Source: a virus. From it: a DNA stretch of 24,331 nt. This document shows, piece by piece, positions 2,099 through 19,007 of the stretch (positions are counted from its first letter, which is position 1; each line of letters starts with the position of its first letter). The stretch is from IMG/VR virus record IMGVR_UViG_3300022723_000048, positions 1 through 24,331 of that record; one strand, 5' to 3'. The notes beneath the pieces were generated by a model that saw only the letters and a program-made list of their open reading frames with translations, was not told the DNA's origin and ran no database searches. Made by a program: the position numbers and the translations under genes.

Positions 2099-4473
2099 CT
2101 AGCGACTCCCCTTCGAATGTCCTGAACGATCTGTTTCCTTGACTTGCGGAACGACCCCGCGTCAGGAGTAACCACCGTCATGTTCACCGTGACGCTCCCG
2201 CTCCCGGCTGCCTTCACGCCAAGTTCACCGCCACGCATCTGCGCGAGCGGAAGGATCGCTTCGGGTCCCTTCTCAGCGATGGAGCCGAGCGAAAATACCG
2301 AGGGACGACTGATTACGCCACCCGTAGCGAACGGAGTAATCGCGTTGCCCGCCGCGCTCGGGGTCACGGCTGTTTTAATCACGTTCGTGAGTCCCGACGT
2401 CAGTGCGCCAACGATGGGCTTGATCAGTGCCTGCTGCGCGACCAGACGACCGAGGTCGCGAAGGAAACTCTCCAGTGCTTCCTTCGCGCTCTTGGTACCG
2501 GTGATGATGCCCTCAAAGGCTTCACCGAAAGCACCCGCGATGTCAGCCGCAAACTGTTCAGCTTCAGTAAGACGCTGCAGCGACGTGTACAGCGAGTCAA
2601 ACTCGGTACGCAGCTCGTTAGCGAGAGTAGCTTCGGTTGTCTTCAAGTCGTTGTCGAACTCCCGAGCAGCTCGTAGCTTGTCCTTTTCCTCAGCAAGCTT
2701 ACCGACGAGGCTGATCTCGAATTCCAAGTCTTCGAGCGCCTTAAACGAGCTCTCTGGCGGGAGACCCTTCGCAGCTCCACGAGCTCGCGCGATTGCTTCG
2801 TCTCGCTGGCGTCGAGCCTCTTCGAGTTCAGGCGGCGGTCCAGCGCGATCACCGGCACCGGGAGCTGCGCTACCCGCGCCGGCGTCTTTCAGCTCCTGCG
2901 CGGCATCGCTAAGTTTTCGCGTAAGGTCGGAGCGACCGAGAGCCTTAACCATGTTGTTGTACGCGATCTCTAGCAGCGCTGCGTTTTTCTGCGCGTCAAC
3001 AGCAAGATCAATGTTAATCTCCTCGAGGTTCTCCCGAAAGCTCTTAAGCCCCGTGAGATCGATCTCAAACGGTATACCCCCCGGTGTCCGTAGTTTAATG
3101 GTACCGAGCTCTTCAAGTTTTTGGATCAAGCGACCGAACGCATCCGTGGCAGCGATACCGACTTCGAGCAGCAGCTGCTTGAAACCACGAAGGGCAAACT
3201 GGATAACCGCGATGCCATCCTTGAACTTCTGTGCGACCCAACCGATGAGTTCGCCCAGCCACTTGAGAATGTTTGCCATCTCGCGTTGATCGTTGGTCGC
3301 GTCCAACCACGCCTGCCGGTCACCGTTCAAGATTCGCGCGATGGTCGTGAAACTGTCCACGAGGCTGCGCAAGTTACCGGCGAGACCCCGGTCACCCGTC
3401 TGCAGGACCATCTCTTCGAGTGCCGAACGGAGGTTCAAGAACGAGCCGCGCAAGGTATCCTGCATGATCCGGGCCATGTTCTCAGCCTCGCCCGCTGCTT
3501 CGCGGTTCGCGTCGCGCAGTTCCTTGATTCGTTGCGTCGAGGAGGCGAACGTGAGCGCTGCCGCGAAATTTCGCCGGCCAAAGATCTTCACAGCCGCAGT
3601 GGCACCGAGGTTTGCCTCTGCGAAACGCTCGAAGATGTCGACAGCGTCGTTAGCCGCGGGATTGACCCCGTCGAAGGTAAGATTTAGTTTCTCAAGCTCG
3701 TTGTCGAGCTTTTCACTCCGCTCAGCCAGTGCAGCGAACGTTCCCCGCAAGTTTGTACCCGCCATCGTAGCCTGGATGCCGCGGTCGCCGAGAACACCAA
3801 CGAAAGCCGCCGCCGTCTCTACGTCGTTACCGAAGGCAGACGCTGCCACACCGCCGAGTTTCATAGCCTCGGCTAGCTGAGTGATGTTGGTATTCGATCG
3901 GTTCGAAGTTGCTACGAGCGTGTCCACGACGCGCTCAGTTTCACTGGCTCGCAAGCCAAATTGCGAAACGATATTCGACGCAAAATCAGCCGCCGTTCCC
4001 AGCTCAATGTGCCCCGCTGCTGCGAGACTCAACGTGCCGCTGACAGCGTCGAGTGACTGCTGTGCAGTGAAACCCGCACGAGCCAGGAACAACAACGCTT
4101 GACCCGCTTCGTTCGCACTGAACCGTGTCGTCGCGCCAAGCTCACGCGCGCGTCCTTCGAGACGCTTGAAGTCGTCGCTCATGCGGTCAAGCCCCGTGAC
4201 TCCGCTGAGCTCGGCCATGGTACTCTGGAAGTCCGCAATGATCGTAATGACCTTGCGAAGCGCTGCGAATGTCAAGAACGTCGTCACGAGGCTGCGCAGG
4301 CCCGCACCGGTGGCACGGGTACGCTTCGAGGTCTGTTGCAGCTGACGGCCAAAGCCTTTGACGTGGCGGCCTGCGCGGTCAGCGGACGCGCCCATGCGAC
4401 GAGTCGCTTGGTCGAACCTCCGAGCTCCTCTCTCCGCCGGAGCCGAGTCGATCACCGCTTGTAGTGTCGCCAT
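2095..4473 (-). CDS. tail tape measure protein (TP901/lambda H-like)
   Basis: This 792-residue protein sets tail length and lies inside the tail tube before DNA ejection. A hydrophobic stretch is near residues 60-85. A TP901-type minor tail domain follows at roughly 80-330, with ARELGATTRFSANEAGQAL and further alanine-rich helices. Charged coiled-coil stretches fill the middle, around a hydrophobic segment near 400-450. The C-terminus has the lambda-like motif FATGGVISRPSVF followed by GPEAILPL. With the usual rule of about 0.15 nm per residue, the tail would be near 115-120 nm. The ATG at 4473 lies inside the end of the gpT frame and lacks a strong ribosome binding site, so coupling is likely. 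The stop overlaps the next start. Confidence 0.93.
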   Translation of the reverse strand: MATLQAVIDSAPAERGARRFDQATRRMGASADRAGRHVKGFGRQLQQTSKRTRATGAGLRSLVTTFLTFAALRKVITIIADFQSTMAELSGVTGLDRMSDDFKRLEGRARELGATTRFSANEAGQALLFLARAGFTAQQSLDAVSGTLSLAAAGHIELGTAADFASNIVSQFGLRASETERVVDTLVATSNRSNTNITQLAEAMKLGGVAASAFGNDVETAAAFVGVLGDRGIQATMAGTNLRGTFAALAERSEKLDNELEKLNLTFDGVNPAANDAVDIFERFAEANLGATAAVKIFGRRNFAAALTFASSTQRIKELRDANREAAGEAENMARIMQDTLRGSFLNLRSALEEMVLQTGDRGLAGNLRSLVDSFTTIARILNGDRQAWLDATNDQREMANILKWLGELIGWVAQKFKDGIAVIQFALRGFKQLLLEVGIAATDAFGRLIQKLEELGTIKLRTPGGIPFEIDLTGLKSFRENLEEINIDLAVDAQKNAALLEIAYNNMVKALGRSDLTRKLSDAAQELKDAGAGSAAPGAGDRAGPPPELEEARRQRDEAIARARGAAKGLPPESSFKALEDLEFEISLVGKLAEEKDKLRAAREFDNDLKTTEATLANELRTEFDSLYTSLQRLTEAEQFAADIAGAFGEAFEGIITGTKSAKEALESFLRDLGRLVAQQALIKPIVGALTSGLTNVIKTAVTPSAAGNAITPFATGGVISRPSVFSLGSIAEKGPEAILPLAQMRGGELGVKAAGSGSVTVNMTVVTPDAGSFRKSRKQIVQDIRRGVAR

Positions 4474-5190
4474 GCCAGTCTAACAGAACTCGATCGAGTT
4501 CGCGTACAGCGAGGAACAACTCACGCCGCTGGTCAAAGTCGTCGATGCCGTGAAGCTCCAGCCAACTTTTGATGTCCGTGACCGAGATCGGACACGGCCC
4601 AAAGCCACCCGACGCTCGAGCCGCTGACAGCTCAACGAACGCGTGGTATATCCACGCGATGTCCTCGTGAACGTCGGGACGATTGTCAATCGCGGGTGTC
4701 GGTAAGCCACGAGCTGCACGTTTCTCCAGAAACTTGATGTACCTGCCGTTTTCCTTGCCCCAGGCTAAGGTCCAACGGAGGTACTTGCTCAGTTTTTTCG
4801 GTCGTCCTCCTCCTGGTCTTCGGCGAAGAGACTGTTCTCGTTCGACATGTCCGTAACGAAACGGTACAGATCGCGCAGTCTCGGGTCCGAGAGAAGCTCG
4901 TGCGCCTTGTCCTCGCTGTACGGGATGTCCTCGCCGTTGTCGTCCTGCAAGTTCTTCCAGCCGAGGAGCAGGTACCTGGCTGCGCCGCGTACCATGATTT
5001 CTTGCGCTTTGTCGTCGGGCATCTGATCCCGACGAATGAGGTTCTGGTACGGCTTGGTAGCTCGCCGAATGTAGTTCGCGTACTCCTGCTGCGATGAGCC
5101 ACCGATGAGCAGCTCTACGTCCTCGACGTACGGGCACCAGACTCCTTTGCCAGCACGGTCGAGGTCTTGCCTAATGCGGTTCAGTTTCAC
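4379..5190 (-). CDS. tail assembly chaperone gpGT, made by programmed -1 frameshift
   Basis: Ribosomes reading the gpG frame from 5190 can slip back one base on A_AAA_AAC (4798-4792). They then continue in the -1 frame to the stop at 4379-4381 and give a fusion of about 270 residues: 133 from gpG plus 137. The sequence after the slip begins LSKYLRWTLAWGK and includes VHEDIAWIYHAFVEL, which look like real protein and have no start codon of their own. The last 95 bases overlap the tape measure start. In lambda and many siphophages the G/GT pair binds the tape measure protein and recruits tail tube subunits. Position between tube and tape measure genes fits exactly. The frameshift itself is inferred from sequence. 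Confidence 0.88.
4789..5190 (-). CDS. tail assembly chaperone gpG
   Basis: This gene encodes 133 residues. It starts with GTG at 5190, four bases after a strong AGGAGG, nine bases downstream of the tail tube gene. The protein is acidic at the C-terminus (EDQEEDD) and mostly helical, with no recognisable motif of its own. The assignment rests on position between tube and tape measure genes and on the slippery heptamer that overlaps its last codons just before the TGA. The protein should be made in excess over the gpGT fusion. It is a non-virion assembly factor in the systems studied. Confidence 0.85.
   Translation of the reverse strand: MKLNRIRQDLDRAGKGVWCPYVEDVELLIGGSSQQEYANYIRRATKPYQNLIRRDQMPDDKAQEIMVRGAARYLLLGWKNLQDDNGEDIPYSEDKAHELLSDPRLRDLYRFVTDMSNENSLFAEDQEEDDRKN
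4792..4798 (-). promoter_or_regulatory. -1 ribosomal frameshift slippery site A_AAA_AAC
   Basis: In the gpG frame the minus strand reads CGA AAA AAC TGA, so the classic X_XXY_YYZ heptamer A AAA AAC ends directly before the stop codon. Slippage gives the CTG AGC AAG frame of gpT. This heptamer is among the most efficient -1 sites known in bacteria, and such sites are the rule between siphophage tail tube and tape measure genes. I did not identify a clear downstream pseudoknot. Confidence 0.9.
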
Positions 5191-5198
5191 AGTTCCTC

Positions 5199-6362
5199 CT
5201 ACGCGGCATTGCGCGCGATGCGAAGCGTGTGGCCGTAGGTACCGCTACGCTTCGCGCTGAACTGCATGTCCGCGATCACGTCCTGGTTGATACCTCCCGC
5301 CACGCGCTGCCCTTGCGTGTACTTGACCGCCGGCAAGTCGATGACGTAGGCCTTGCCGTTGCCATCTTCCGCGACGATCATGATCTCCGTTTCGGTGAAG
5401 TTCAGGTACTTGTCCATCACCGTGGAGTTGTTGAAGTAAGCCTGTAAAGTGCCGGTGATCTCCACTGTACCGGCACCGATGGACACCGCGCCGAGCGTAC
5501 CGACCTGCTGGCGCGCTCGCAAGTTGTTCGCCAGCTCCAGGCTGAACTGCGTGATGTCGTAGTCCGAACCACCTTCCACCACCGCAGCGATGTGATCGAT
5601 GGCGTTCATCACGTCGTCCGTCGGTGCAGCCGTGTTCGACCCGTCACCGACAGTGCTAGCGCTGCTCGCTGCCGACTTGCCGAGGAAACCGAAGTTTCCC
5701 GTGATGATCTGGTCCGGCTGCACGTTGAGCGACAGCGCATTCACCGTGAGACCCGTGAGCACTTCGAAGATGTTCGAGAGGTCCTCAAACGTTTTCTCGA
5801 TGGAGTAGCTCTTCTGCGTGGTGCCGTTCGTGATCGCCGACAAGTTCTCGATCGTGACGCTGTCACCTGCCACCTCGTCCGTGAGGTTCCGATTGACCAC
5901 GATCTTGTTCGAGCCGCTGACGCTGACCACCCGGAAGTAACCGTTGTTTCCGGCCTCGGTAAAGCCCGAGACCTTGATGATGTCACCGGCCGAAGGATCG
6001 TTGTCCCAGCTCGACGTGTGGTTGAACGAGTCGTCCGAAGTTGCCGCGCTCACGCCCGTGTCCGCGGCCGCGACGCTTTCTTCGGCCGACCAGTCAGCAC
6101 TCTGGAGCGCGGCCTGGAGCAAGTCATCGTACGCGCCGTACGAAAGCTCGAGGCCGATGTCACCTTCCGCACGAATCCCCGTGCGTACGTGGTCCGGCAC
6201 CTGCCGGTCCGATCGGATCTCTTGTGACTGTACGACTTCGGTCGCCTGCACCAGACTCTCCTGCGTATACCGCATGTTCTGGAGCGTGGGCGGTCCGCTG
6301 GGGGTGACTCCGAACGTCGACTCTTCGACGTAGGCGAGAAGTACCCTGTTGGTATCTGACAT
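5199..6362 (-). CDS. major tail tube protein
   Basis: This gene encodes 387 residues. The ATG at 6362 follows AAGGAGAG by six bases, the strongest ribosome binding site in the tail operon, in keeping with a protein needed in many copies. The start is typical of the phage tail tube family (Phage_tube_2): AYVEESTFGVTPSGP at 10-24, then a RSDRQVPDHVRTG stretch and ELSYGAYDDLL. A central segment near 115-165 (DIIKVSGFTEAGNNGYF) looks like an inserted surface beta domain. The C-terminal half repeats tube-like strands and ends with KRSGTYGHTLRIARN. It should polymerise into the hollow tail tube around the tape measure. Upstream lies the tail terminator and downstream the chaperones, the normal order. 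Confidence 0.92.
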   Translation of the reverse strand: MSDTNRVLLAYVEESTFGVTPSGPPTLQNMRYTQESLVQATEVVQSQEIRSDRQVPDHVRTGIRAEGDIGLELSYGAYDDLLQAALQSADWSAEESVAAADTGVSAATSDDSFNHTSSWDNDPSAGDIIKVSGFTEAGNNGYFRVVSVSGSNKIVVNRNLTDEVAGDSVTIENLSAITNGTTQKSYSIEKTFEDLSNIFEVLTGLTVNALSLNVQPDQIITGNFGFLGKSAASSASTVGDGSNTAAPTDDVMNAIDHIAAVVEGGSDYDITQFSLELANNLRARQQVGTLGAVSIGAGTVEITGTLQAYFNNSTVMDKYLNFTETEIMIVAEDGNGKAYVIDLPAVKYTQGQRVAGGINQDVIADMQFSAKRSGTYGHTLRIARNAA

Positions 6363-6374
6363 TCGGGTCTCTCC

Positions 6375-6770
6375 TTAGAAACTGTAGATGAAAGGGCAGT
6401 CGACGTTGAGCTGCCACCACTTCCCTTCGCGTCCCACCGGCTGTGGAAACGGCGTACGGAAAGTCACCGTACCGACCGTGACTCTGCGAAATACGGTAGC
6501 GATCTTGTCGGCGTAATCGACAGCAACGCTGGTACCCGTCTCCTCGAGCACGAAAATCTGAGCAATCGCGTTGCCCGTGCCGCGAAACTTCGGTGTGGCA
6601 CCGATCTCGGTCTGGCGCGACGCACCCCACAAGATCGTGAACCGCACCCAAGCGCTCTCGTCCGGCGGTGTAAACGGTGCGTTGTCATACTGCACCGACA
6701 CGCCCTCGGGAGTGGCGAATTCATCTGCCAGGCGAGAGTTGATCGCGTTCTGGACCGTCTCGACGCTCAT
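6375..6770 (-). CDS. tail terminator-like protein (DUF4128-like)
   Basis: This gene encodes 131 residues, with its start overlapping the upstream stop as ATGA. The pattern is that of small siphophage tail terminator proteins: an N-terminal helix (VQNAINSRLADEF), then YDNAPFTPPDESAWVRFTIL, then a strand-rich core with GNAIAQIFVLEETG and an ADKIATVFR helix. Such proteins cap the finished tail and join it to the head stopper. The neighbours (gp10-like protein before, tube protein after) fit. I recognise the fold pattern rather than a precise family, so the role is well supported by synteny and the family label is less sure. Confidence 0.83.
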   Translation of the reverse strand: MSVETVQNAINSRLADEFATPEGVSVQYDNAPFTPPDESAWVRFTILWGASRQTEIGATPKFRGTGNAIAQIFVLEETGTSVAVDYADKIATVFRRVTVGTVTFRTPFPQPVGREGKWWQLNVDCPFIYSF

Positions 6771-7183
6771 GAACCGAACACGTCCTCTCGTAGCTGACGA
6801 ATACTCACGGTAAGCATTCCCTTCGGAGCTTGCTTGGACCAGCCACGTTCCAGACGAACGATGTACGGCACGTTGTTCGTCAGGAAGATCACGTCGCCGA
6901 GCTTGAGCTGCGACAGCGCGCTGATGTCCTCCGTAGAGCCACCACCACTAAGGTTCGACGAAGTGTCGAATTTGCCCGTCTCGCCCGAAGCCGGAACGTT
7001 AACCGTAAGTTGCCAGTTGCCGCGCGCACGGCCCGAGTCAACGGGCGTGCGCTGAACCACAAGACGCAGTAAGTCAAGACCAAGCTTCTTGAAAAACACG
7101 ATCGCTTGCTCTTGCGACAAACGTCGAGACACCCGCCGTAACTCACGGTTGAAAGTCTTGAGGCCTCGAATCGTCGCGGTCAT
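6767..7183 (-). CDS. HK97 gp10-like tail completion protein
   Basis: This gene encodes 138 residues, joined by ATGA overlaps on both sides. The sequence has the family layout: a basic N-terminal helix (LKTFNRELRRVSRRLSQEQ), then VVQRTPVDSGRARGNWQLTV at 38-57, which is the family hallmark (TPVDSGRxRGNW), and a C-terminal NNVPYIVRLERGWSKQAPKGML. Proteins of this family act at the head-tail joint or in tail completion. Length is normal. The composition matches the tail module to its left rather than the head module to the right. Confidence 0.9.
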   Translation of the reverse strand: MTATIRGLKTFNRELRRVSRRLSQEQAIVFFKKLGLDLLRLVVQRTPVDSGRARGNWQLTVNVPASGETGKFDTSSNLSGGGSTEDISALSQLKLGDVIFLTNNVPYIVRLERGWSKQAPKGMLTVSIRQLREDVFGS

Positions 7184-9540
7184 CGTCGGAGCTGCAGTTG
7201 GTACGCTGCAATCTGCTTTCCAGTGTATATCGGTTGTACTCGAACCACATCGAAGACGTCACTGTCTACCTTGAGGCTAAATCCTTGCTGCGGCACGATG
7301 CTAAGGCCGCTCGCGGGCAGTAGCACCTTCGCGTCGCCTGCCTTTACCACGTCACCGTCGATCAAGTGACTCGAGTAAGACTCGGGCGGAGTCACTTTCT
7401 TGAACTCGGTAGCGCCGCCGCTCTCGACAACGGTACCCGCGGTCGGGTCGAAAGAATACGAAGCGACCGTCGTCAGTTTCGCTGTTTTACCGAGACGATT
7501 TACCAGCGACAGTACTTTCGGTACAAGCGACTCGTCGAGAGCTGTTTTAGCAGAAGTACTCGGAACGATCGCTCCAGTGCCGCGAACGTAAACCAGGTAC
7601 AGGCCAACTTGCTCGCCTGTGTAAATCGTCTCGTACTTGACTACGTCAAAGACCACGCTGTCGATGGTAACCTTAAGCCCTGTTCGCATCGTGAACGGGA
7701 TACCGCGATGCGCGATACCGAAGAGCAAGTCACCCGTGCGTACCACGTCGCCTGTCACGTAACGGTGCTCGTAGCTAAACGGTGGCGTGACCATCACGTT
7801 GTGCTGCGTTACACCACTGTTCGCCACTGCGCCCGTGCTCGGGTCGTAAACTTGATCTTCTGTCTCGATGACAGCGTCTTTACCTAGACGGTTAATCAAC
7901 GACTCGATGGTAGGACGCAGCGAAACGTCCAGTGTGGTCGGCGTGATCGTTACCGCGAGCGATACCGTACCACCGACCACGATAATCTTTGCGTCGATCG
8001 TAGCCCCGACCAACGTCTCGGATCCCGCTCCTGCCGCTGTGCCACCGATCACGACGAACGGCGTGTTAACCGTAGTACCGAGCAACGTAACGCCACCAGC
8101 GACTACGACGCCAGACACGACAACGACGGGGGCAGCGACTACCGTACCGATCAACGCGACCGTTCCCGGGCCGAGCGCCCCGTTTGCTGTCGTGAACTTC
8201 GCGTCAATCGTTCCGCCTTCGAGGCTCTGCAGCTCGCCGAGCAAGCCACTGACCACCGAAAACAACGCATCGACCGTGTTGCCAACGACGGCGACGCTGC
8301 CCGGAGCGACCTCGCCGCTGACCACTGCCAACGGAACACCGAGCGTAGTGCCGAGCAAAAATGCAGCACCCGGGTCGAGCGCTCCGTTTACCACCGTGAA
8401 CAGCGCACCGATGGTAGAACCAGTCAGCGTCTCAGCGCCGCCAACTTGCAAAGTTCCGCCAACGACTTGCATGAGCGCGTCGATGGCGCTCCCGTCGATA
8501 CCCACGCCGCCAGCGTCGAGCGAACCGGAAATGAGCTGAAACAGCTCTTCGATGACGCTGCCCTGAACGGCGACGCTGCCTGAAGCTACTTCGCCGTTCA
8601 CGATTTGCAACACCGCATCGACAGTGTTACCGACGAGAGCAGCGCTACCCGAATCGAGTGAGCCGCTCACAGGTTGCAGCAGCGCGTTAATCGTGGAGCC
8701 GTCGATAGTCTTGTGTTCAGCGAGAGCACCGTTGACCACGCTGAACAGCGCGTCAACGGCTGCGCCAGTAATCGACACGCTACCCGGCGACAGCGAGCCG
8801 CTTGCGACCGTGATCGGAGACGAGATCGAGCCGCCGGTGAGGGTCTGGCCCCCGCCGCCCGCGTCCACCTCGTCCGGCACTGCCAGCGACGACGACGGGA
8901 AGAACACGCGGGACGGGTTGCCGACGAGCGTCGGCGAGCTGACGGGCGAAGCGATGTCGCCGCCCATCACGTCGAGACCGCTACCCACCAGCGGCCAGTA
9001 GTGGGTCAGGATGTCGGGGCGGATCAGCAGAGGCGAGACGCCCGCGGAGAACTGCGCCACGCCCTTCGCGCCGATGTCGCCGTCGTAGAGCGCGATGTCC
9101 CAAAGCTCGCCGTCCCAAAGGCTCCCCGCAGGCGACCCCTTGTCGTTGAAGTCGCCGATGTAGAGGACCCGGCTCCCGACTGACGAGTACCCGCCGATGG
9201 TCCCCGTACCCGCCGCGCTGCCGTTCAAATAGAATGCGTAGTTGCTACTGGCGTCGATCCGCACCGCGACGGCGTAGACCACGTCCTCCGAGATCCCGGA
9301 GGAGAAGTTGTAGTCCGCCACGCCCGCGTGCGTGAACCGGAAAACACCGTTGCTTCGGATTTCCAGCTTCCAGCCGTTGTTCGGGTTGTCGCGCGCGCCG
9401 ATGACGGCGGCCTCGTTGCCGAAGGTCGCATGGTTGTCCGACCGGCAGCGCGCAAGGATGGTCCGGTTCGTCGTGGCGCTGTCCCAGACGACGCCCGTGG
9501 TCAGGTACTGCGTGGACGCGCGGACAAGGTCGTACGCCAT
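7180..9540 (-). CDS. fused virion protein: LamG-like domain, 23-residue repeats, two head-tail stopper-like domains
   Basis: This single frame of 786 codons starts with ATG at 9540, two bases after the upstream stop. Residues 1-225 look like a LamG/concanavalin-type binding domain with SNYAFYLNGSAAGTG, a WDGELWDIALYDG strand and an ILTHYWPL motif. Residues 232-541 hold about thirteen 23-residue repeats. Residues 541-654 and 670-786 are two copies of a small head-completion domain: each has an NRLGK helix, a YDP or FDP turn, TPP, DGDVV or TGDVV, KAGD or RTGD, FDVV, IYTG and a YVR or LRR end. A lone stopper of this kind is usually about 110-120 residues. The fusion is unusual, and base composition changes within it near 8.8 kb. 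It could be a true mosaic protein or an assembly join. The ATGA overlap with the gp10-like gene fits the stopper role. Confidence 0.85.
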   Translation of the reverse strand: MAYDLVRASTQYLTTGVVWDSATTNRTILARCRSDNHATFGNEAAVIGARDNPNNGWKLEIRSNGVFRFTHAGVADYNFSSGISEDVVYAVAVRIDASSNYAFYLNGSAAGTGTIGGYSSVGSRVLYIGDFNDKGSPAGSLWDGELWDIALYDGDIGAKGVAQFSAGVSPLLIRPDILTHYWPLVGSGLDVMGGDIASPVSSPTLVGNPSRVFFPSSSLAVPDEVDAGGGGQTLTGGSISSPITVASGSLSPGSVSITGAAVDALFSVVNGALAEHKTIDGSTINALLQPVSGSLDSGSAALVGNTVDAVLQIVNGEVASGSVAVQGSVIEELFQLISGSLDAGGVGIDGSAIDALMQVVGGTLQVGGAETLTGSTIGALFTVVNGALDPGAAFLLGTTLGVPLAVVSGEVAPGSVAVVGNTVDALFSVVSGLLGELQSLEGGTIDAKFTTANGALGPGTVALIGTVVAAPVVVVSGVVVAGGVTLLGTTVNTPFVVIGGTAAGAGSETLVGATIDAKIIVVGGTVSLAVTITPTTLDVSLRPTIESLINRLGKDAVIETEDQVYDPSTGAVANSGVTQHNVMVTPPFSYEHRYVTGDVVRTGDLLFGIAHRGIPFTMRTGLKVTIDSVVFDVVKYETIYTGEQVGLYLVYVRGTGAIVPSTSAKTALDESLVPKVLSLVNRLGKTAKLTTVASYSFDPTAGTVVESGGATEFKKVTPPESYSSHLIDGDVVKAGDAKVLLPASGLSIVPQQGFSLKVDSDVFDVVRVQPIYTGKQIAAYQLQLRR
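7920..8847 (-). repeat. about thirteen tandem 23-residue (69-base) coding repeats
   Basis: Residues 232-541 of the fused protein repeat a unit of roughly 23 residues, with the shape V-x-L-x-G-T-x-V-D-A-L-F-x-V-V-x-G-x-L-x-x-G. Examples begin VSITGAAVDALFSVV, VAVVGNTVDALFSVV, VGIDGSAIDALMQVV and TLTGSTIGALFTVV. Copies differ in sequence and a few are 22 or 24 residues long, so they are old and not a recent slippage product. Regular small/hydrophobic alternation suggests a beta-solenoid or fibre-like rod. The family is not identified. Confidence 0.8.
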
Positions 9541-10509: not shown

Positions 10510-10551
10510 CTACGCCTCCATCTCCCGGTCGAACTCGGACGGGGTGCCCAT
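10510..10551 (-). CDS. possible 13-residue coupling minigene
   Basis: An ATG at 10551 overlaps the adaptor gene stop as TAATG. It opens 13 codons (MGTPSEFDREMEA) and ends in TAG, which touches the next ATG. The GGAGG for the next gene lies inside it. It may serve only to carry ribosomes from the adaptor gene to the next gene. Such a short frame may also arise by chance, so confidence is low. Confidence 0.3.
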   Translation of the reverse strand: MGTPSEFDREMEA

Positions 10552-11294
10552 TACGGACCTCCCATCTCAAGGGACCAATCCACGGACGGCTCGGGGACGA
10601 TGTCGAGGTCCGCCGCTCCGTGACGGTTGTCGGCGATATTGCTCGCCTGAATCTTTTCCTCGCGAAGACCGCGCTCCTCACGGGCCACGTCGTACTCGCG
10701 TCGCAACGCCGCGTACTCCGCCCGCATCTCGTGGCGAATCTCGGGGTACGCGCTGGCCGGAAGCTCCACGAATGTGTCACTCGAAATCAGCCCGAAGTAC
10801 GGCGTGTAGTAGAACGTGACCGTGATCGCGGACGAGTCCGACTTGGCCCGCTTCCACTGGGCCACGGGCGGATCGTCACTCGTCATGCCATCGAAGAACC
10901 AGCGCGGCTCGGCCGCACTCTCGGCCCACGGATGAGTCGATCGGCCCTGTGTCCCCCACGACGCCACGAAATCGGCCTTCGTCGTGATCTGGACGAGCTT
11001 CGTCTTCCCGCCCTGCGTCTCCGTGATCTGACGCATCGACCGGAAATCCGCCGGCATCGAGATCGTCTGCGAGGAGGCCGAAAGCGTTTCCTCCTTCTCA
11101 CGGACCGCCCACGGGTAGTGGGCCATCCGCTTCGAGATGTATTCATGCGCCTCTTCCAGAATCCGGTTCAATTCGGTCTGGGTCGCCGTTGCGAGGTTGT
11201 CGTAGGAGATCCCCGACCACGTCGCGACGGTGTTCCGAAGCTCCGTCTCCGTGAGCCGGTCGAGGGGGGAGGTAGTCGTTCGGAGAGCCGTCAT
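10551..11294 (-). CDS. putative head-tail adaptor / connector protein
   Basis: This gene encodes 247 residues, with its start overlapping the upstream 25-residue gene as ATGA. The N-terminal helical part (LTETELRNTVATWSGIS, then ELNRILEEAHEYISKRM) is followed by a beta-rich middle with SQTISMPADFRSMRQI. A late helix is rich in Arg and Glu (EIRHEMRAEYAALRREYDVA). This helix-strand-helix order and size fit the adaptor proteins that dock under the portal in podoviruses and some siphoviruses. Its place downstream of portal and capsid genes and before tail genes agrees. The specific family is not identified, so the role is an inference. Confidence 0.72.
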   Translation of the reverse strand: MTALRTTTSPLDRLTETELRNTVATWSGISYDNLATATQTELNRILEEAHEYISKRMAHYPWAVREKEETLSASSQTISMPADFRSMRQITETQGGKTKLVQITTKADFVASWGTQGRSTHPWAESAAEPRWFFDGMTSDDPPVAQWKRAKSDSSAITVTFYYTPYFGLISSDTFVELPASAYPEIRHEMRAEYAALRREYDVAREERGLREEKIQASNIADNRHGAADLDIVPEPSVDWSLEMGGP

Positions 11295-11368
11295 CGTTCA
11301 ACTGCGATGACGTGAATGACCATGCTGTTGGCATCCGAATTGGACGTGATCTTGATTTTTCCAGCCAT
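11291..11368 (-). CDS. 25-residue minigene, unknown function
   Basis: This very short gene has ATG at 11368 and TGA at 11291-11293. An excellent AAGGAG lies six bases before the start, inside the end of the glycosyltransferase gene. It begins three bases after that stop, and its own TGA overlaps the adaptor start as ATGA. The peptide starts MAGKIKITSNSDAN and ends VIHVIAVER, which is an amphipathic, strand-like pattern. Both junctions fit the operon's coupling style, so I think it is translated. It has no recognised family and may act mainly as a coupling leader or as a small virion peptide. Confidence 0.65.
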   Translation of the reverse strand: MAGKIKITSNSDANSMVIHVIAVER

Positions 11369-11371
11369 TCG

Positions 11372-12550
11372 CTACTCCTTCACCGCCACCATTTCGCGGC
11401 GCTTCCTCAAGAGGTCGTTCTCGGCCTCGGTGACAACCGACTTCCGCTGCATCTCGGCCCGGTACAGGCTCTTCACCTGTTTCGGCGTCATGTTCGGGTC
11501 AACCGCCTGAACACCGCTCTTGAACGCCTTGGGCGCAAGACCCGCGTAGCGCCGGAACTCGTTCTTGTTGTCGTGAAGCTTGATGTGGCCGAGGAAAACC
11601 CGCGTGTCAACCCACATGCGAATCCCTAGGTCATGGCACATCCGGCAAAACCAGATGTCCTCGCCAATCGCCCAGTTCCCGTGGTACATCAGCCGGAAGT
11701 CGCGTTGATGACGCTCCTCGACCTCCTCGTCAAGAGCCTTCGCCAACGCCTCCGGGTCGTCCTTGTGCTTGTCGAGAAGGTCGCGAAGCTCGTAGTTCTC
11801 GAACGAGCCGTCCCGCAGCTTGTCCTTGAACCACGGACGCCGCGCCGCATGGAGTCGCTTGAACACGTCCCGCGTGATGAGCAGACACCCGGTCGGAAGG
11901 CCACCGTTCTCCAACGGAATCAGACCCCTCTGGCCCACGAGCTTCGTGACGACCTCCCGGGACGCGAACCGGAAACCCCCACCGGGGTCGTCCGACATCT
12001 CGTAGATGAGCGGCTGGACACCGTCCGCCCTCTGGCTCTCGACGCAGTAGACGCCGCCCACAACATCCACGTCGTCGCGCTCGATGTCCTCCAGAAGATG
12101 ATGGAGGTCTTGGGCGGACGGAACGTTGTCGGCATCGACAAGCAGGACCGCGTCGTAATCCGTGTTCAACAGGTCGTCGCAGTCCCAGTCGATGTCGAAC
12201 AGGAACTTCTTCGCCTGGTTGTTCCGGTTGGCGGCCAGCGGAGACCCGGGGACAGGGCAGAACGTGACCGACCAGCCATCGGGAATCATCGAGGCCCATA
12301 GGTGCTTCTTGGTCCGCGCATCGACCCATTGGCGCTCGGCCTGTTCGGCCACCCAGCCGATGCCCGCGTCTTCGCCCATGTCACGGACCTGTGCCCGCGC
12401 CTTGAGTTGCGATGTGGGAAGGCCGTCCGCAATCGAATGGGCAAGGTCCCGGCAAGCCGACTGGACCTGCACCGACATGAGCCACCAGACAAGCTCCTGA
12501 TGGTAGGAGCCGTAGGGCGCGGTCGGAACCGAAACCATCAAGCGCTTCAT
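11372..12550 (-). CDS. GT-A type glycosyltransferase (GT2-like)
   Basis: This gene encodes 392 residues. ATG at 12550 is chosen because GGAGG lies seven bases before it and it overlaps the methyltransferase stop as ATGA. The protein starts MKRLMVSVPTAPYGSY. A DxD metal- and sugar-nucleotide-binding motif is at VLLVDADNVPS (135-145), GGLPTGCLLITRDVF at 216-230 forms the usual acceptor-side strand, and GEDIWFCRMCHDLGIRMWVD (296-315) plus GHI (321-323) match the late ED...GH motif of the family. It should transfer a sugar from a nucleotide donor. The acceptor is not visible; virion protein, host surface polysaccharide or DNA are all possible. Its place within the head operon suggests that it acts late in infection, perhaps on capsid or fibre proteins. 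Confidence 0.88.
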   Translation of the reverse strand: MKRLMVSVPTAPYGSYHQELVWWLMSVQVQSACRDLAHSIADGLPTSQLKARAQVRDMGEDAGIGWVAEQAERQWVDARTKKHLWASMIPDGWSVTFCPVPGSPLAANRNNQAKKFLFDIDWDCDDLLNTDYDAVLLVDADNVPSAQDLHHLLEDIERDDVDVVGGVYCVESQRADGVQPLIYEMSDDPGGGFRFASREVVTKLVGQRGLIPLENGGLPTGCLLITRDVFKRLHAARRPWFKDKLRDGSFENYELRDLLDKHKDDPEALAKALDEEVEERHQRDFRLMYHGNWAIGEDIWFCRMCHDLGIRMWVDTRVFLGHIKLHDNKNEFRRYAGLAPKAFKSGVQAVDPNMTPKQVKSLYRAEMQRKSVVTEAENDLLRKRREMVAVKE

Positions 12551-13149
12551 GCCCGAACCTCCACGAGAATTTGTTCCCCCGTCTTCGTGGACCACGTCTT
12601 TCGGGACACCGGCATGAGCAGTTCGTTGACCGCGCGCTTCACGCCCCAGTCCCACATGCGGTCGTGGTAGTCGTCAAGAGCCACGACAGCCCCATTGGAG
12701 AGACGCGGGATCACCCGTTCGAGGTCTTCGCGAACGCCTTCGTAGGAATGGTCCCCATCGACATGAGCGAAGCGGATCTTGTCGGGGACCGTGTCCCATG
12801 CGCGGTCATCGTGCGAACTGCCCACCATCAGGTTGAAGTTTGCGACCCCCATCGCGCCCATGTTCTTCTGGAACAGTTCGTCCGGCTTGTGGATTCGGGA
12901 CAGCTCCCTTTTCAGGTCGGGGTCCTCCTCCGGCGCGGAGAAGCTGTCGATGACGAAAAGCGCCTCGCCGAGATTCCGGTCCTGAAGAGCGCGGCAAATC
13001 ACGGCGGTAGAGCGTCCGAGAAAGCACCCGATTTCCAGCGTGCCGCCCTCGACATCGGTGTCCCGCGCCGCCGTGTAGAGCAGTTCGAGGTAGTCCGGTC
13101 CGGTGTACCCCTGAATACGGAGAGCGTCCTTGACCCGCTCAAAGGCCAC
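12547..13149 (-). CDS. class I SAM-dependent methyltransferase (Methyltransf_24-like)
   Basis: This gene encodes 200 residues from a GTG at 13149, chosen because AAGGA lies about nine bases upstream and it overlaps the preceding gene by 11 bases. An in-frame ATG at 13212 is possible but would add a basic tail deep in the upstream gene. Motif I is LEIGCFLGRSTAVI (38-51), the SAM-binding glycine loop. An acidic strand end appears in VIDSF (66-70). The hallmark HVDGDHSYEGVREDLE (129-144) and ALDDYHD (157-163) are typical of the Methyltransf_24 / cephalosporin-hydroxylase-like group, often found beside glycan genes. With the adjacent glycosyltransferase it may modify a sugar or the virion. The substrate is unknown. 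Confidence 0.88.
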   Translation of the reverse strand: MAFERVKDALRIQGYTGPDYLELLYTAARDTDVEGGTLEIGCFLGRSTAVICRALQDRNLGEALFVIDSFSAPEEDPDLKRELSRIHKPDELFQKNMGAMGVANFNLMVGSSHDDRAWDTVPDKIRFAHVDGDHSYEGVREDLERVIPRLSNGAVVALDDYHDRMWDWGVKRAVNELLMPVSRKTWSTKTGEQILVEVRA

Positions 13150-13549
13150 GGCGTTCCGTCCTTTCGAGTTCGTGCAGCGCGTCTCGGAGAACCGCCTGTG
13201 CGAGCGCATCACATTCGCGGCCCGTCTTGCGCCGCTGCCATTCCGCGAAGTCGCCGAGGATGTTGTGCGTCCACGTCTCCCGCATCTCGAAAAACCTCGG
13301 GTCGGCGCGGTCTCCTGCGTAGTACTTCGCGAAGAACAGGACCTTGTCGCAGGCGTTGCTCATTTCGGAGCCGACCGGATGACTGGAGCGGCGGCGACGA
13401 ACCACGTCGGGCATCTTGCGGAACCAGTCCACAAGCCCGACACGGGTCGCTTCGTGCCACTCGTCGTCGGTCTGAGCGGCCCAGTTCACGTCGATCATCG
13501 GCGCATCGCACGCCGACTCGATGAGGTCGAACTGCCGGTCTCTAGACAT
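13139..13549 (-). CDS. hypothetical protein in accessory block
   Basis: This gene encodes 136 residues. ATG at 13549 overlaps the upstream stop by eight bases, and its end overlaps the methyltransferase start. No clear ribosome binding site is seen, so coupling is likely. The protein is charged and tryptophan-rich (DVNWAAQTDDEWHEATRVG, then VDWFRKMPDVVRRRR and ETWTHNILGDFAEWQRR) with one or two mid-sequence cysteines. No signal peptide or membrane segment is visible. I do not recognise a family. Tight linkage to the methyltransferase and glycosyltransferase suggests a shared task. Confidence 0.72.
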   Translation of the reverse strand: MSRDRQFDLIESACDAPMIDVNWAAQTDDEWHEATRVGLVDWFRKMPDVVRRRRSSHPVGSEMSNACDKVLFFAKYYAGDRADPRFFEMRETWTHNILGDFAEWQRRKTGRECDALAQAVLRDALHELERTERRGL

Positions 13550-14336
13550 CGGTCACGATGTCTCCGAGGGCGTCGGAAATCTCCATCGGCCCATCACTTG
13601 TCATGACGGCTCCGTACATCGCGTACTTGTCGCTGTACGGGTTGGGGTGCTTCTCGACCACCATCGGCTCATCCATGTGCGCCGCCTTGTCGATCCAGAT
13701 GGACCCGGCGTTGGCCTGAAGAAGATGGCGGACCAGTTCGCGCAACGCGTCCGTCGAACACGGCGACTTCTTGCCGTGCGGCTGCATCGTGGCCGTGTGA
13801 AGGCCCTGGAAGTCCGAGACCGAAACGATGGCCCGATCCGGAATCGGGTTCTTCTCGTAGCTGAAGAAGTAGTTCGCCGTGGCACGGTCGATCTCGTGGT
13901 AGTGGTGCTTCGACGTGAGCGCACGACCATCGCGGACCTGCTGGAATGTCCCCTTGAACTTGAACGGGTTCTTGACCCACTTGCGGAGTCCCGTCGCCTT
14001 CAAGTGGCGGGGCACGTCGCGGCCCGGGTGGACTCCCTGCGGTCGCTTGTAGACAGTGGCCGGCAGGTACTTGAGGGTCGAGACAAGGGTCACGATCTCC
14101 ACGTCCTCGTCGATCCACCGCAGCGGGTCCACGGACTCGTCGTAGGGAGCGGCATCGCCCGTACTCTTGGCCGGAGTCGGGACGGGCTTCGCCTGCTGCG
14201 CGAGTACCGCTTCCAACTCCTCCGACGTGGAGACGCCGAATCGCTCCAGAAGCGCGTCGAGTTCCGCCTCCTTCCGCTTCGCTCTCGTGACGTGATGCTC
14301 CTTGCCGGAGCCGGTTTTGACTGCACCGTCGCTCAT
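13542..14336 (-). CDS. hypothetical protein, first gene after the capsid terminator
   Basis: This gene encodes 264 residues from ATG at 14336, which is preceded by an AAGAGAG purine tract; the in-frame ATG at 14381 has none. The N-terminal 60 residues are charged, with a basic helix and SEELEAVLAQQAK, like a helical tether. After a Pro/Thr-rich linker comes a globular part with IDEDVEIVTLVSTLKYLP, a basic stretch (GLRKWVKNPFKFKGT) and a C-terminal HPNPYSDKYAMYGAVM. I recognise no family or catalytic motif. Placement between capsid and modification genes suggests a virion or head-associated protein, but this is inference. Confidence 0.75.
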   Translation of the reverse strand: MSDGAVKTGSGKEHHVTRAKRKEAELDALLERFGVSTSEELEAVLAQQAKPVPTPAKSTGDAAPYDESVDPLRWIDEDVEIVTLVSTLKYLPATVYKRPQGVHPGRDVPRHLKATGLRKWVKNPFKFKGTFQQVRDGRALTSKHHYHEIDRATANYFFSYEKNPIPDRAIVSVSDFQGLHTATMQPHGKKSPCSTDALRELVRHLLQANAGSIWIDKAAHMDEPMVVEKHPNPYSDKYAMYGAVMTSDGPMEISDALGDIVTDV

Positions 14337-14381
14337 CGATCTCTCTTTCTTTCCGGGGCGTTTTCGCTTCGCCGGGGTCAT

Positions 14382-14415
14382 GGAAAAGAAGGGAGAGGGC
14401 TACACGCCCCCTCCC
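14382..14415 (-). terminator. intrinsic terminator after the major capsid gene
   Basis: The minus strand forms a ten-base-pair stem, GGGAGGGGGC with GCCCTCTCCC (one G-U pair), around a five-base loop, and is followed by TTCTTTTCC. It begins about nine bases after the capsid stop. This would end much of the head transcript directly after the most abundant gene and lower expression of the accessory and tail genes. Confidence 0.8.
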
Positions 14416-14424
14416 GTGCATGGA

Positions 14425-15597
14425 CTAGCCGATCCCGCGGATGAAGCCGTGCCGCTTCTCCCAAGTGATCCCGAGGCCCGAGTTCGTCTTCATCTGGTGC
14501 TTGACGATCTCGCCGCCCGGGTCGTCCTGGATGTTCTGCTGGAACGTGAACTTCTTCCCGGTCAGGTGATGGAGGCTCAGGCACTTCGGGTCGATGAAGA
14601 ACATGTACCCGTTGTACGGAGCGCCCGCCTCCTGAAGGATGCGCTCGTACACCATGTCGAGCGTGAAGTTCGACACGGAGATGGACTGTCCGGCGTAGCC
14701 GTACGGACCCTTGCGGTCCTGATTCCCGACTCGCGCCGTGGTGCCGAGATCGGCCAGCCCGCCGAGGGCGAGTTCGCCGTGGTAGCACTTGTAGTTGCGG
14801 TACTTGGCCCACTCGGCCAGACCCTCGACGATTCCGGAAACCGTGGCGTACGCCAAAGCACCGCCCTCGTTCGCCGACGTGACGCCGGAGCCGTTCGCGA
14901 GCTGGACCACGATGCCCTTGGTCGTCTGGTAGCCGCCGGACGTCGAAGCGTCCTGCGAGGACCGTCCGAACCAGTAGGTGAACCCGAGGTCCTTGCGGAA
15001 CTCCTTGCGGAGCCATGAGGACTTCTGCTCCATCCGGCTCGCCTTGGTCTCCACGTCGCTCGCCAGCTCGGTCTCGTCCCAGTGGACGGACCGGCGAATG
15101 AGCTGCGTGTAGTTCGTGACCTTGGTCGGCTCGCGGTAGGTCGCCGTCGCCGAGGACGCCGAATCGAATGCCGCCGCCTCGCCGAGAATGATGAACGCCG
15201 CGTCCGTGGCGATAGCCGCGGTCCGCGTGTTCAGGTCGGAAATGTTGAGCGGAGCCGCGACCGAAGTGATTCGGACATGGTCTCCGTCCTCCCCCGCCGT
15301 GGGGAAGTGCAGGATGTCGCCGACCCGGAGCCCGGCCGTGGACTCGACGTAAAGCTGGGTGTCGTCCGTGGCAAGGCCGGTCGTGTCGGAGACGGTGCCG
15401 GTGCGGTCGGTCATCTCACCGGCCCACGCGAAAAACTCGGGCGTCCCAACTTCCTTGGAGTTGCCCTGTGTCATCACGAAGGTCGCGAGGTCGGCCGCAA
15501 CGTCGTCGTCGATGTCGATGTAGTTCTCGTACTCGTAATCGATCATCGACGTAAGGGTGGAGCGAAGCTCCATGTACCCCTTATTCGTCGTGTTCAT
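14425..15597 (-). CDS. major capsid protein (SU10/DUF5309-like, HK97 fold)
   Basis: This gene encodes 390 residues, starting at ATG 15597 after a GGGAG site. A central EPTKVTNYTQLIRRSV segment, followed by a helix rich in Glu, Arg and Lys (WLRKEFRKDLGFTYWFG), is the signature I associate with the SU10 major capsid family, which adopts the HK97 fold. An inserted acidic beta domain lies near 60-150 (LATDDTQLYVESTAGLRVGD). The C-terminal part has a FTLDMVYERIL helix and NGYMFFIDPKCLSLHHL, as in the axial domain. It follows a scaffold gene and is followed by an intrinsic terminator, both expected. No protease gene is visible in the head module, so maturation may rely on the separate scaffold. Confidence 0.88.
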   Translation of the reverse strand: MNTTNKGYMELRSTLTSMIDYEYENYIDIDDDVAADLATFVMTQGNSKEVGTPEFFAWAGEMTDRTGTVSDTTGLATDDTQLYVESTAGLRVGDILHFPTAGEDGDHVRITSVAAPLNISDLNTRTAAIATDAAFIILGEAAAFDSASSATATYREPTKVTNYTQLIRRSVHWDETELASDVETKASRMEQKSSWLRKEFRKDLGFTYWFGRSSQDASTSGGYQTTKGIVVQLANGSGVTSANEGGALAYATVSGIVEGLAEWAKYRNYKCYHGELALGGLADLGTTARVGNQDRKGPYGYAGQSISVSNFTLDMVYERILQEAGAPYNGYMFFIDPKCLSLHHLTGKKFTFQQNIQDDPGGEIVKHQMKTNSGLGITWEKRHGFIRGIG

Positions 15598-15647
15598 ATC
15601 AGTCTCCCGGACCGAACCCGGCTACGGAGAGGCGGACACCGCTGCTG

Positions 15648-16478
15648 CTATCGCAACGGCAGTTCCTCCATCCCGTACTTCTTCTTGCGAGCCGATGGCG
15701 ACATCGCGTAGAAGGCCCCGGGGTCGATCACGTTCTTTTCTTCCTGTTCCTGAATGCCGCCGGGCACCGCGCCCGCCGACCCGGACCCGAGAAGGGAGTC
15801 CGTCCGCTTTCGCTTCAGATCCTCCGACTTACGGGCCTCCTCGCTGCGGTTCAGCGATTCGCGCAGGTTTCCGGAACGATGAGCGTTGAGAAGCTGGATC
15901 GCGAGCACGCGGTCCTTGATGCCGAGTTGGTTCTCCATCTGCGCGATCTCGTTTTCGTTCGAGATCCCGCCGATGTCGGCGCTCTCCTTGATCGCCTGCT
16001 TGAACTCCCATGCCTCAAGGGCCTGCTTGGCGGCGTGCGGCGTCCATGCAGCACGCTCCGCATCGAGGGCAGCGCGGCGCAGTTCCTTGCGACGGTCCGG
16101 GTCGTACTCGTTCTCGTACGCCTCCCAGAGATCGTCGGACGGGTTCTGCGCGCGACGCTGCTGCCCCTCGAAATACTCCTTGACCTTCTGGCGCTCGGTC
16201 TGCCATTGCTGCTGCTCGCGCTTCAGCTCGGCGTTCTCCTGTGAGCGCCTGGTGAATTCCTGCACCCACGCCTTCGGGTCCGTGATGTTCGCTTCCCGCG
16301 CCGCGTTGTAGAACGCCAGCGCCTCGTCCTTGTCCGGTGCCGTTTCGTTCGACTCCGTGACAGCACGGCCTTCGGCCTCCTGCGCCCCGACGCGCTCGTT
16401 CCCCTCGTCGGGGTTGACGTTCTCGTCGGTCTGCTGGTTGGGCTGTCCCGCCTGTTCCCGGTTGGTCTCATCCGACAT
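15648..16478 (-). CDS. capsid scaffold protein
   Basis: This gene encodes 276 residues. ATG at 16478 is chosen because it follows the upstream stop by two bases and has AGGAG about 12 bases before it; a longer in-frame start at 16544 would lie within the neighbour. The protein is acidic and rich in Gln, Glu and Asn at the N-terminus. The middle is a long charged coiled coil (SQENAELKREQQQWQTERQK, then more helices to about residue 200). The C-terminus has a Gly-rich linker and a basic SARKKKYGMEEL tail. Such proteins drive procapsid assembly, and the basic end typically binds the capsid protein. Position between portal and capsid genes is standard. Confidence 0.82.
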   Translation of the reverse strand: MSDETNREQAGQPNQQTDENVNPDEGNERVGAQEAEGRAVTESNETAPDKDEALAFYNAAREANITDPKAWVQEFTRRSQENAELKREQQQWQTERQKVKEYFEGQQRRAQNPSDDLWEAYENEYDPDRRKELRRAALDAERAAWTPHAAKQALEAWEFKQAIKESADIGGISNENEIAQMENQLGIKDRVLAIQLLNAHRSGNLRESLNRSEEARKSEDLKRKRTDSLLGSGSAGAVPGGIQEQEEKNVIDPGAFYAMSPSARKKKYGMEELPLR

Positions 16479-16480
16479 GG

Positions 16481-16816
16481 CTACTGCTTTCTCCTGTATT
16501 CGTGAAGCCGGGATCGAAGCTCTGTCAACACGTCGGAGCTGCAAAGAAGGCCGGAAGCCTCATCCACCCCGTACATGAGATGTCGCGTGCGCTCGTCCTC
16601 CCGACCGGCTTCTTCCACCGGAAGGCTGCGCTTGTCTTTCTTGAAGTCGTCCGCAATCGCGTCGAAGTGGTGCTTGAGCAATCCGGAAACTGCCCGGCAC
16701 AACTCGTCCTCGTTCGTCAAGCGATCGGCCACGATGTCGGCGAAGCGGATCAATGCGGTGCGCTCCTCCTCGGCGAGATCGGGGCGAAGACGGACAAAGA
16801 CTTCTCGATCACTCAT
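16481..16816 (-). CDS. small head-module protein, unknown function
   Basis: This gene encodes 111 residues. ATG at 16816 overlaps the portal stop as ATGA, and the TAG at 16481-16483 ends two bases before the scaffold start. The protein is helical and charged (LAEEERTALIRFADIVADRL, then AVSGLLKHHFDAIADDFKKD) and ends RLHEYRRKQ. No motif, signal or membrane segment is visible. Small proteins at this place in podovirus-type head operons are common but poorly described. It may help portal or scaffold assembly; this is only inferred from position. Confidence 0.78.
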   Translation of the reverse strand: MSDREVFVRLRPDLAEEERTALIRFADIVADRLTNEDELCRAVSGLLKHHFDAIADDFKKDKRSLPVEEAGREDERTRHLMYGVDEASGLLCSSDVLTELRSRLHEYRRKQ

Positions 16817-18930: not shown

Positions 18931-19007
18931 TGACCCTTCCTATACCACATGGATTGAGATAAATGGAAACAACCCCCCAACATCTTGTGGCCGGGGAGCC
19001 GAGAAAA
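18931..19007 (-). other. AT-richer spacer between terminase and portal genes, possible promoter
   Basis: This 77-base gap is unusually rich in A and T for the head module. On the minus strand it holds TTGTTTCCATTTATCT and then GGTATAGG just before the portal ribosome binding site. A promoter here would allow separate control of head genes, but spacing between possible -35 and -10 boxes is poor. I see no terminator. Confidence 0.25.

Follow-up and report, generated by a model that had tools for sequence, protein, structure and literature searches.

Domain organization of the fused gene

The stretch of DNA analysed here (the window; 24,331 nucleotides, i.e. positions 1 to 24,331 of the IMG/VR record IMGVR_UViG_3300022723_000048) comes from an uncultured long-tailed virus of bacteria with a siphovirus tail module. 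On its minus strand, at 7180-9540, it harbours a gene for a protein of 786 amino acids in which a LamG-type head, a rod of 13 repeat units and two neck stopper domains separated by a short linker are joined in one frame. The open reading frame (ORF; 9540-7180) is unbroken over 786 codons, with an ATG start and a TGA stop.

The N-terminal head (residues 1-230; 8851-9540, minus strand) has a LamG/concanavalin-like fold according to the Pfam family Laminin_G_3 (PF13385), which matched residues 10-157 with an E value of 6.2e-9 and 36.6 bits versus a curated cut-off of 27.6, and it may bind glycans. This match exceeded the cut-off only when residues 1-229 were scanned alone, being absent from the listing of the whole-protein Pfam scan, and a sequence search of the PDB with the head gave no match. 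The head is followed by the repeat rod (residues 236-534; 7939-8835, minus strand), which lag-23 autocorrelation and unit parsing resolved into 13 units, each 21-24 residues long; at lag 23, residue identity amounted to 0.247, as compared with a shuffled maximum of 0.146 +/- 0.009, and none of 500 shuffles reached the observed value.

The C-terminal part consists of stopper domain 1 (residues 537-653; 7582-7932, minus strand), a linker of 14 residues (7540-7581, minus strand) and stopper domain 2 (residues 668-785; 7186-7539, minus strand). The two domains were recovered with our own hidden Markov model (HMM; 6e-34 and 1e-35, respectively) as well as with the head closure Hc1 profile phrog_161 (E 2.5e-9 at 7582-7920 for the first and 4.5e-16 for the second copy), which matched the fused protein in two stretches with an overall E value of 6.9e-21. 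When the whole record was searched with this profile, these were the two places that matched, and no other stopper was found. The copies are around 41% identical to each other (Z = 40 against shuffles) and both keep the conserved stopper positions, i.e. the chain carries two homologous ring domains, as in T5 pb6.

The gene also occupies the place where a stopper gene belongs, i.e. between the gene for an SU10-type adaptor (10551-11294, minus strand; PF24175, 1.5e-10), the ring expected above the stopper, and the genes for a gp10-like tail completion/Neck1 protein (6767-7183, minus strand; phrog_169, E 1.3e-36) and a single-copy tail terminator (6375-6770, minus strand; Phage_tail_terminator_5, 4.1e-9; phrog_179, 3.1e-29). 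An ATGA motif combines its stop with the start codon of the gp10-like gene, and the gp10-like and terminator genes overlap in the same manner; the tail tube gene follows (5199-6362, minus strand; PF18906, 5.1e-48). An earlier reading made from the letters of the window, hereafter the sequence-only reading, had proposed the 786-codon frame, the LamG-like head, the 23-residue repeat rod, the two stopper domains and, from the ATGA coupling, a normal stopper position; the frame is open on the minus strand, every part of the domain reading was right, and the overlap and the canonical gene order were confirmed.

Upstream, the region 10551-21044 comprises an SU10/P22-like head module (SU10 capsid, adaptor and a weak SU10 portal match) before the siphovirus tail module, with the SU10-type major capsid gene at 14425-15597 (minus strand; PF17236, 2e-14). 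Between the capsid and adaptor genes (11372-13212) lie a Methyltransf_24 gene and a gene that resembles glycosyltransferases, the latter by a weak Pfam match. The contig end (23001-24331) shows a strong A-over-T and partly C-over-G skew on the plus strand, and no gene was recognised there.

Predicted structure

An AlphaFold2 model of the fused protein was built with 28 sequences. Stopper copy 2 reached a predicted local distance difference test (pLDDT) score of around 95, copy 1 mostly 65-87, and the rod was modelled as all-beta, each repeat unit having about two short strands, with a pLDDT of mostly 60-80; confidence was low at the rod-stopper border (residues 520-540). Foldseek searches of the PDB with the whole model placed the T1 stopper (9l0e) at rank 1 (E 2.3e-3, probability 1.00), and the other top stopper or neck chains came from FCWL1, SaPI1, R4C, lambda, phiCD508 and Pam3. 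Together with the confident model of copy 2, these matches identify a stopper fold, the modest E values being probably due to the use of a whole model of many parts.

Fused stoppers in related phages

The tail tube was the best search handle for relatives: an alignment of three tubes yielded 80 IMG/VR loci, a second alignment 80 more, partly from the same contigs, and cellular genomes another 11. Relatives were recovered with tail tube alignments and with an alignment of seven stoppers, and viral-contig scans with the whole protein, a three-stopper alignment or single capsid, tube or terminase proteins found none. The loci were annotated by means of local stopper, gp10, terminator and tube profiles, and were sorted into 134 groups according to how their tube sequences end, a slight overcount, as a single phage with truncated tubes may be counted in more than one group. 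A stopper was present in 116 and a terminator in 128 of these groups.

A long protein with head, rod and several stoppers was found in three groups, i.e. in the window and in the loci L099 and L028, and a lone stopper gene of around 120 residues in nearly all others, in line with the statement of the sequence-only reading that stoppers are normally separate and about 110-120 residues long. The L099 protein (883 amino acids) combines a jelly-roll-like head, a rod with an exact 23-residue period and two stoppers, and that of L028 (1088 amino acids) an unrelated head, a rod and three stoppers. The linkers between stopper domains measure 13-15 residues in all three, and a phrog_161 search found no stopper match beyond the fused gene in the records of L099 and L028. 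Hence, the domain order that the earlier reading had suggested looking for does exist in other phages, and the finding by which it would have been given up, i.e. homologues with the two halves always in separate genes, did not materialize.

In L028, an insert of around 160 residues (residues about 745-905 of the protein encoded at 4884-8147) splits the second of the three stopper copies, and a sulfatase gene (3599-4879; PF00884, E 2.4e-28) lies directly upstream. Apparent fusions in L017, L073/L144, L100 (stopper), L112, L130 and L185 were dropped because, in our judgement, these ORFs had been called too long and their N-termini were junk, and L153/L160/L162, with weak stopper matches in proteins of 278-298 amino acids, were left out of the count. 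In a FastTree phylogeny, copy 1 of the window grouped with copy 1 of L028, and copy 2 of the window with copy 3 of L028 (0.79, 0.84), groupings that were absent from an IQ-TREE analysis of a subset (ultrafast bootstrap 12-58). Due to this disagreement, no common ancestry of the tandem copies is claimed.

The same plan on the tail terminator

In related phages, heads and rods are mounted on the next ring, i.e. the tail terminator. Fused terminators occur in tandem in L002/MW202657, L067/L042 (one phage, 99.8%) and L096, in the latter two behind regions that are rod-like, and as one copy in L039, L045, L055 and L064; L100 has tandem terminators and no head. MW202657 is a circular GenBank phage (Manatee Spring siphovirus), whose stopper is a lone gene of 121 amino acids. 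Its protein P0002 (546 amino acids), encoded before the tail tube, has a start that we read as jelly-roll-like, in the absence of a Pfam match, followed by a rod rich in G, A and S and by a tandem pair of terminator domains, which match each other (BLASTP E 1e-8) and the second of which is matched by phrog_179. No significant period was found in this rod (matched by 39 of 500 shuffles); the periodic terminator rods of L039, L045, L064 and L067 have a period of 20.

The heads appear to be exchangeable. L039 and L045 are 87% identical in the gp10 gene and 95% identical at the DNA level across 1330 bases that encode rod and terminator, but no alignment was obtained between the first 132 residues of the L039 protein and the first 696 of the L045 protein. 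The L045 head contains DUF2341 and a weak GH16-like match, that of L039 a weak F5/8-like match. Receptor-binding fibres show this pattern.

Other unusual genes were seen in this region of the relatives. Rod-only proteins with repeats of around 20 residues are encoded just before the tail tube gene in L030 (5312-6043), L034 (2-1354), L039 (2739-3281) and L021 (6608-7093), those of L030 and L021 starting alike (MPDR.NL.HEELL). The terminator of L063 (1994-2911) carries an insert that fits the profile of the tail tube, resembling the outcome of a domain exchange between tube and terminator. In L104 (7255-10468), three consecutive tail tube genes follow the terminator, and L102 has at least two.

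A proposed stopper with an adhesin arm and its alternatives

On balance, we lean towards reading the fused protein as a neck stopper with a built-in adhesin arm that aids adsorption, with two domains per chain giving three arms. The C-terminal domains would take the stopper-ring places between adaptor and tail terminator, each chain would send its rod and head outward, a direction likewise proposed in the sequence-only reading, and the head may contact cell-surface glycans and aid adsorption, like the neck passage structures of lactococcal phages. Stoppers and terminators form hexameric rings in R4C (PMC10276861) and phage 812 (PMC12886913), and tube proteins with two domains per chain assemble into trimeric pseudo-hexamers, as in T5 pb6 (PMC11313276) and P74-26 (PMC10034513). 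By analogy with the latter, six ring positions at two domains per chain would be filled by three chains with three arms, a step of which we are less sure, and the three domains per chain of L028 would leave two arms. Linkers of 13-15 residues would fit neighbouring places in one ring. On the same analogy with T5 pb6 and P74-26, two domains per chain are better explained by one pseudo-hexamer of three chains than by the duplicated stopper ring that the sequence-only reading had envisaged.

It is tempting to speculate on a general, hitherto undescribed design, which we consider somewhat more doubtful than credible, in which stopper and terminator rings of siphoviruses repeatedly become arm-bearing by tandem duplication and fusion to rods with exchangeable heads, one, two or three domains per chain setting six, three or two arms. 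In L039 and L045, which have a second, unfused terminator gene, the rule that the number of domains per chain divides six is not applicable.

This second terminator gene is among several observations that weigh against our reading. The LamG head has no close relative among 50,697 phage records, and none of the 11 loci from cellular genomes has a fused stopper. For the LamG head, AlphaFold2 lacked relatives and returned no usable model, either within the whole protein or alone (pLDDT 32), and the confidence of the rod model is moderate. Finally, the strongest break in GC content at third codon positions (GC3) of the structural module lies inside the fused gene, at around 8.78 kb, so that the LamG head may have been joined by recombination or misassembly.

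The break, already noticed in the sequence-only reading, is real: the changepoint interval 8725-8836 (best point 8782), near the head/rod border, has a log-likelihood gain of 83 versus a shuffled maximum of 7.7, and GC3 drops from 0.86 before to 0.70 after residue 253 (235-272). It coincides with the border between the SU10-like head module and the siphovirus tail module. If the contig were an assembly chimera of an SU10-like phage and a siphovirus, joined at around 8.78 kb, the LamG head would be foreign to the stopper. Besides the drop itself, this is consistent with the lack of homologues of the head-module genes in roughly 100 compared loci and with the absence of SU10_MCP and SU10_adaptor from all 40 whole records searched, although these searches were weak and control genomes likewise gave nothing. 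Nevertheless, we consider a chimera quite improbable: the join is in frame, on the same strand, at the start of the rod and exactly at the border of the modules, a single non-redundant gene set remains, and GC3 breaks are common in other contigs, including the circular MW202657 (gain 48) and an isolate in L007 (gain 44). Because of the proper, in-frame join and these similar breaks elsewhere, we judge misassembly to be less likely than natural recombination where head and tail modules meet, accompanied by an exchange of the head at the rod. L099 and L028 have head, rod and tandem stoppers in contigs nearly homogeneous in GC3 (gains 12.6 and 7.5), so that the architecture does not depend on the window contig; the identity of its head partly does, and the LamG head is less certain than the rod and tandem stoppers.

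The arm could also be structural, in that rod and head would run alongside the neck or rest on the capsid vertex and thereby brace the joint between head and tail, comparable to the neck decoration proteins of phage 812. The stopper N-terminus does face the adaptor in R4C (PMC10276861), but one would expect conservation of such a brace, whereas the heads of the close relatives L039 and L045 are wholly different, and the head types found (LamG, DUF2341 with a GH16-like stretch, NosD beta-helix) are often seen in surface-binding or glycan-acting proteins; we therefore regard this as unlikely. Fused virion proteins can be processed, and the rod-stopper border, with its low model confidence, may be flexible. 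Accordingly, cleavage, or additional production of the stopper part from an internal start, might give a ring of free stoppers with the head and rod placed elsewhere. We give this little credence, as none of the scanned genes was recognised as encoding a protease and as a free tandem stopper would need a GTG or TTG start, there being no ATG codon between residues 357 and 583.

Comparison with known systems

In the open-access literature searched, we found no description of a rod and adhesin head joined to a stopper or terminator, and neck fibres are known there only as separate add-on proteins. The fusions on stopper or terminator point to a means by which a phage neck could be fitted with additional arms for gripping the host. 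If a channel ring itself carried adhesin arms, host recognition could be coupled directly to the components that retain and release the DNA, the odd long 'hypothetical' genes between the capsid and tail genes of uncultured phages would be explained, and nature would provide a test of how well ring subunits tolerate tandem linkage.

Both copies match the profile of head closure Hc1 proteins or stoppers (phrog_161), such as those of R4C, T1, lambda (gpFII) and phage 812 (gp97); like known stopper genes, the fused gene precedes the gp10-like and terminator genes, and copy 2 is nearest to phage stoppers in the PDB. In contrast to known stoppers, which are normally single proteins of around 120 residues, it holds two tandem copies behind 535 residues of head and rod. 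In its presumed role, it resembles the neck passage structures and collar appendages of the 936 phages, TP901-1, T4 (wac) and XM1 (gp40), with carbohydrate-binding or beta-helix heads on a neck-anchored stalk and head types varying between related phages. In the lactococcal 936 phages, such heads are carbohydrate-binding or beta-helical, and one binds host cells weakly (PMC6669499). However, all of these appendages, including the neck passage structure of TP901-1 (PMC4493119) as well as T4 wac and XM1 gp40, both covered in PMC10491603, are separate proteins attached to the neck, whereas the arm of the fused protein would be covalently part of the channel-forming ring. Moreover, neck passage structures have a BppU-like N-terminal ring domain and a C-terminal carbohydrate-binding head; with the reversed domain order and a stopper as anchor, the fused protein does not belong to them.

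The tandem duplication of a hexameric ring domain within one chain is shared with T5 pb6 and the P74-26 tube protein, which differ in forming the tube and in that their trimeric pseudo-hexamer is known from structure, ours being a prediction. A similar plan is seen in P0002 of MW202657, with its N-terminal jelly-roll-like region, repeat-like rod and two tandem ring domains, the difference being that these are tail terminators and that the stopper of MW202657 is encoded on its own.
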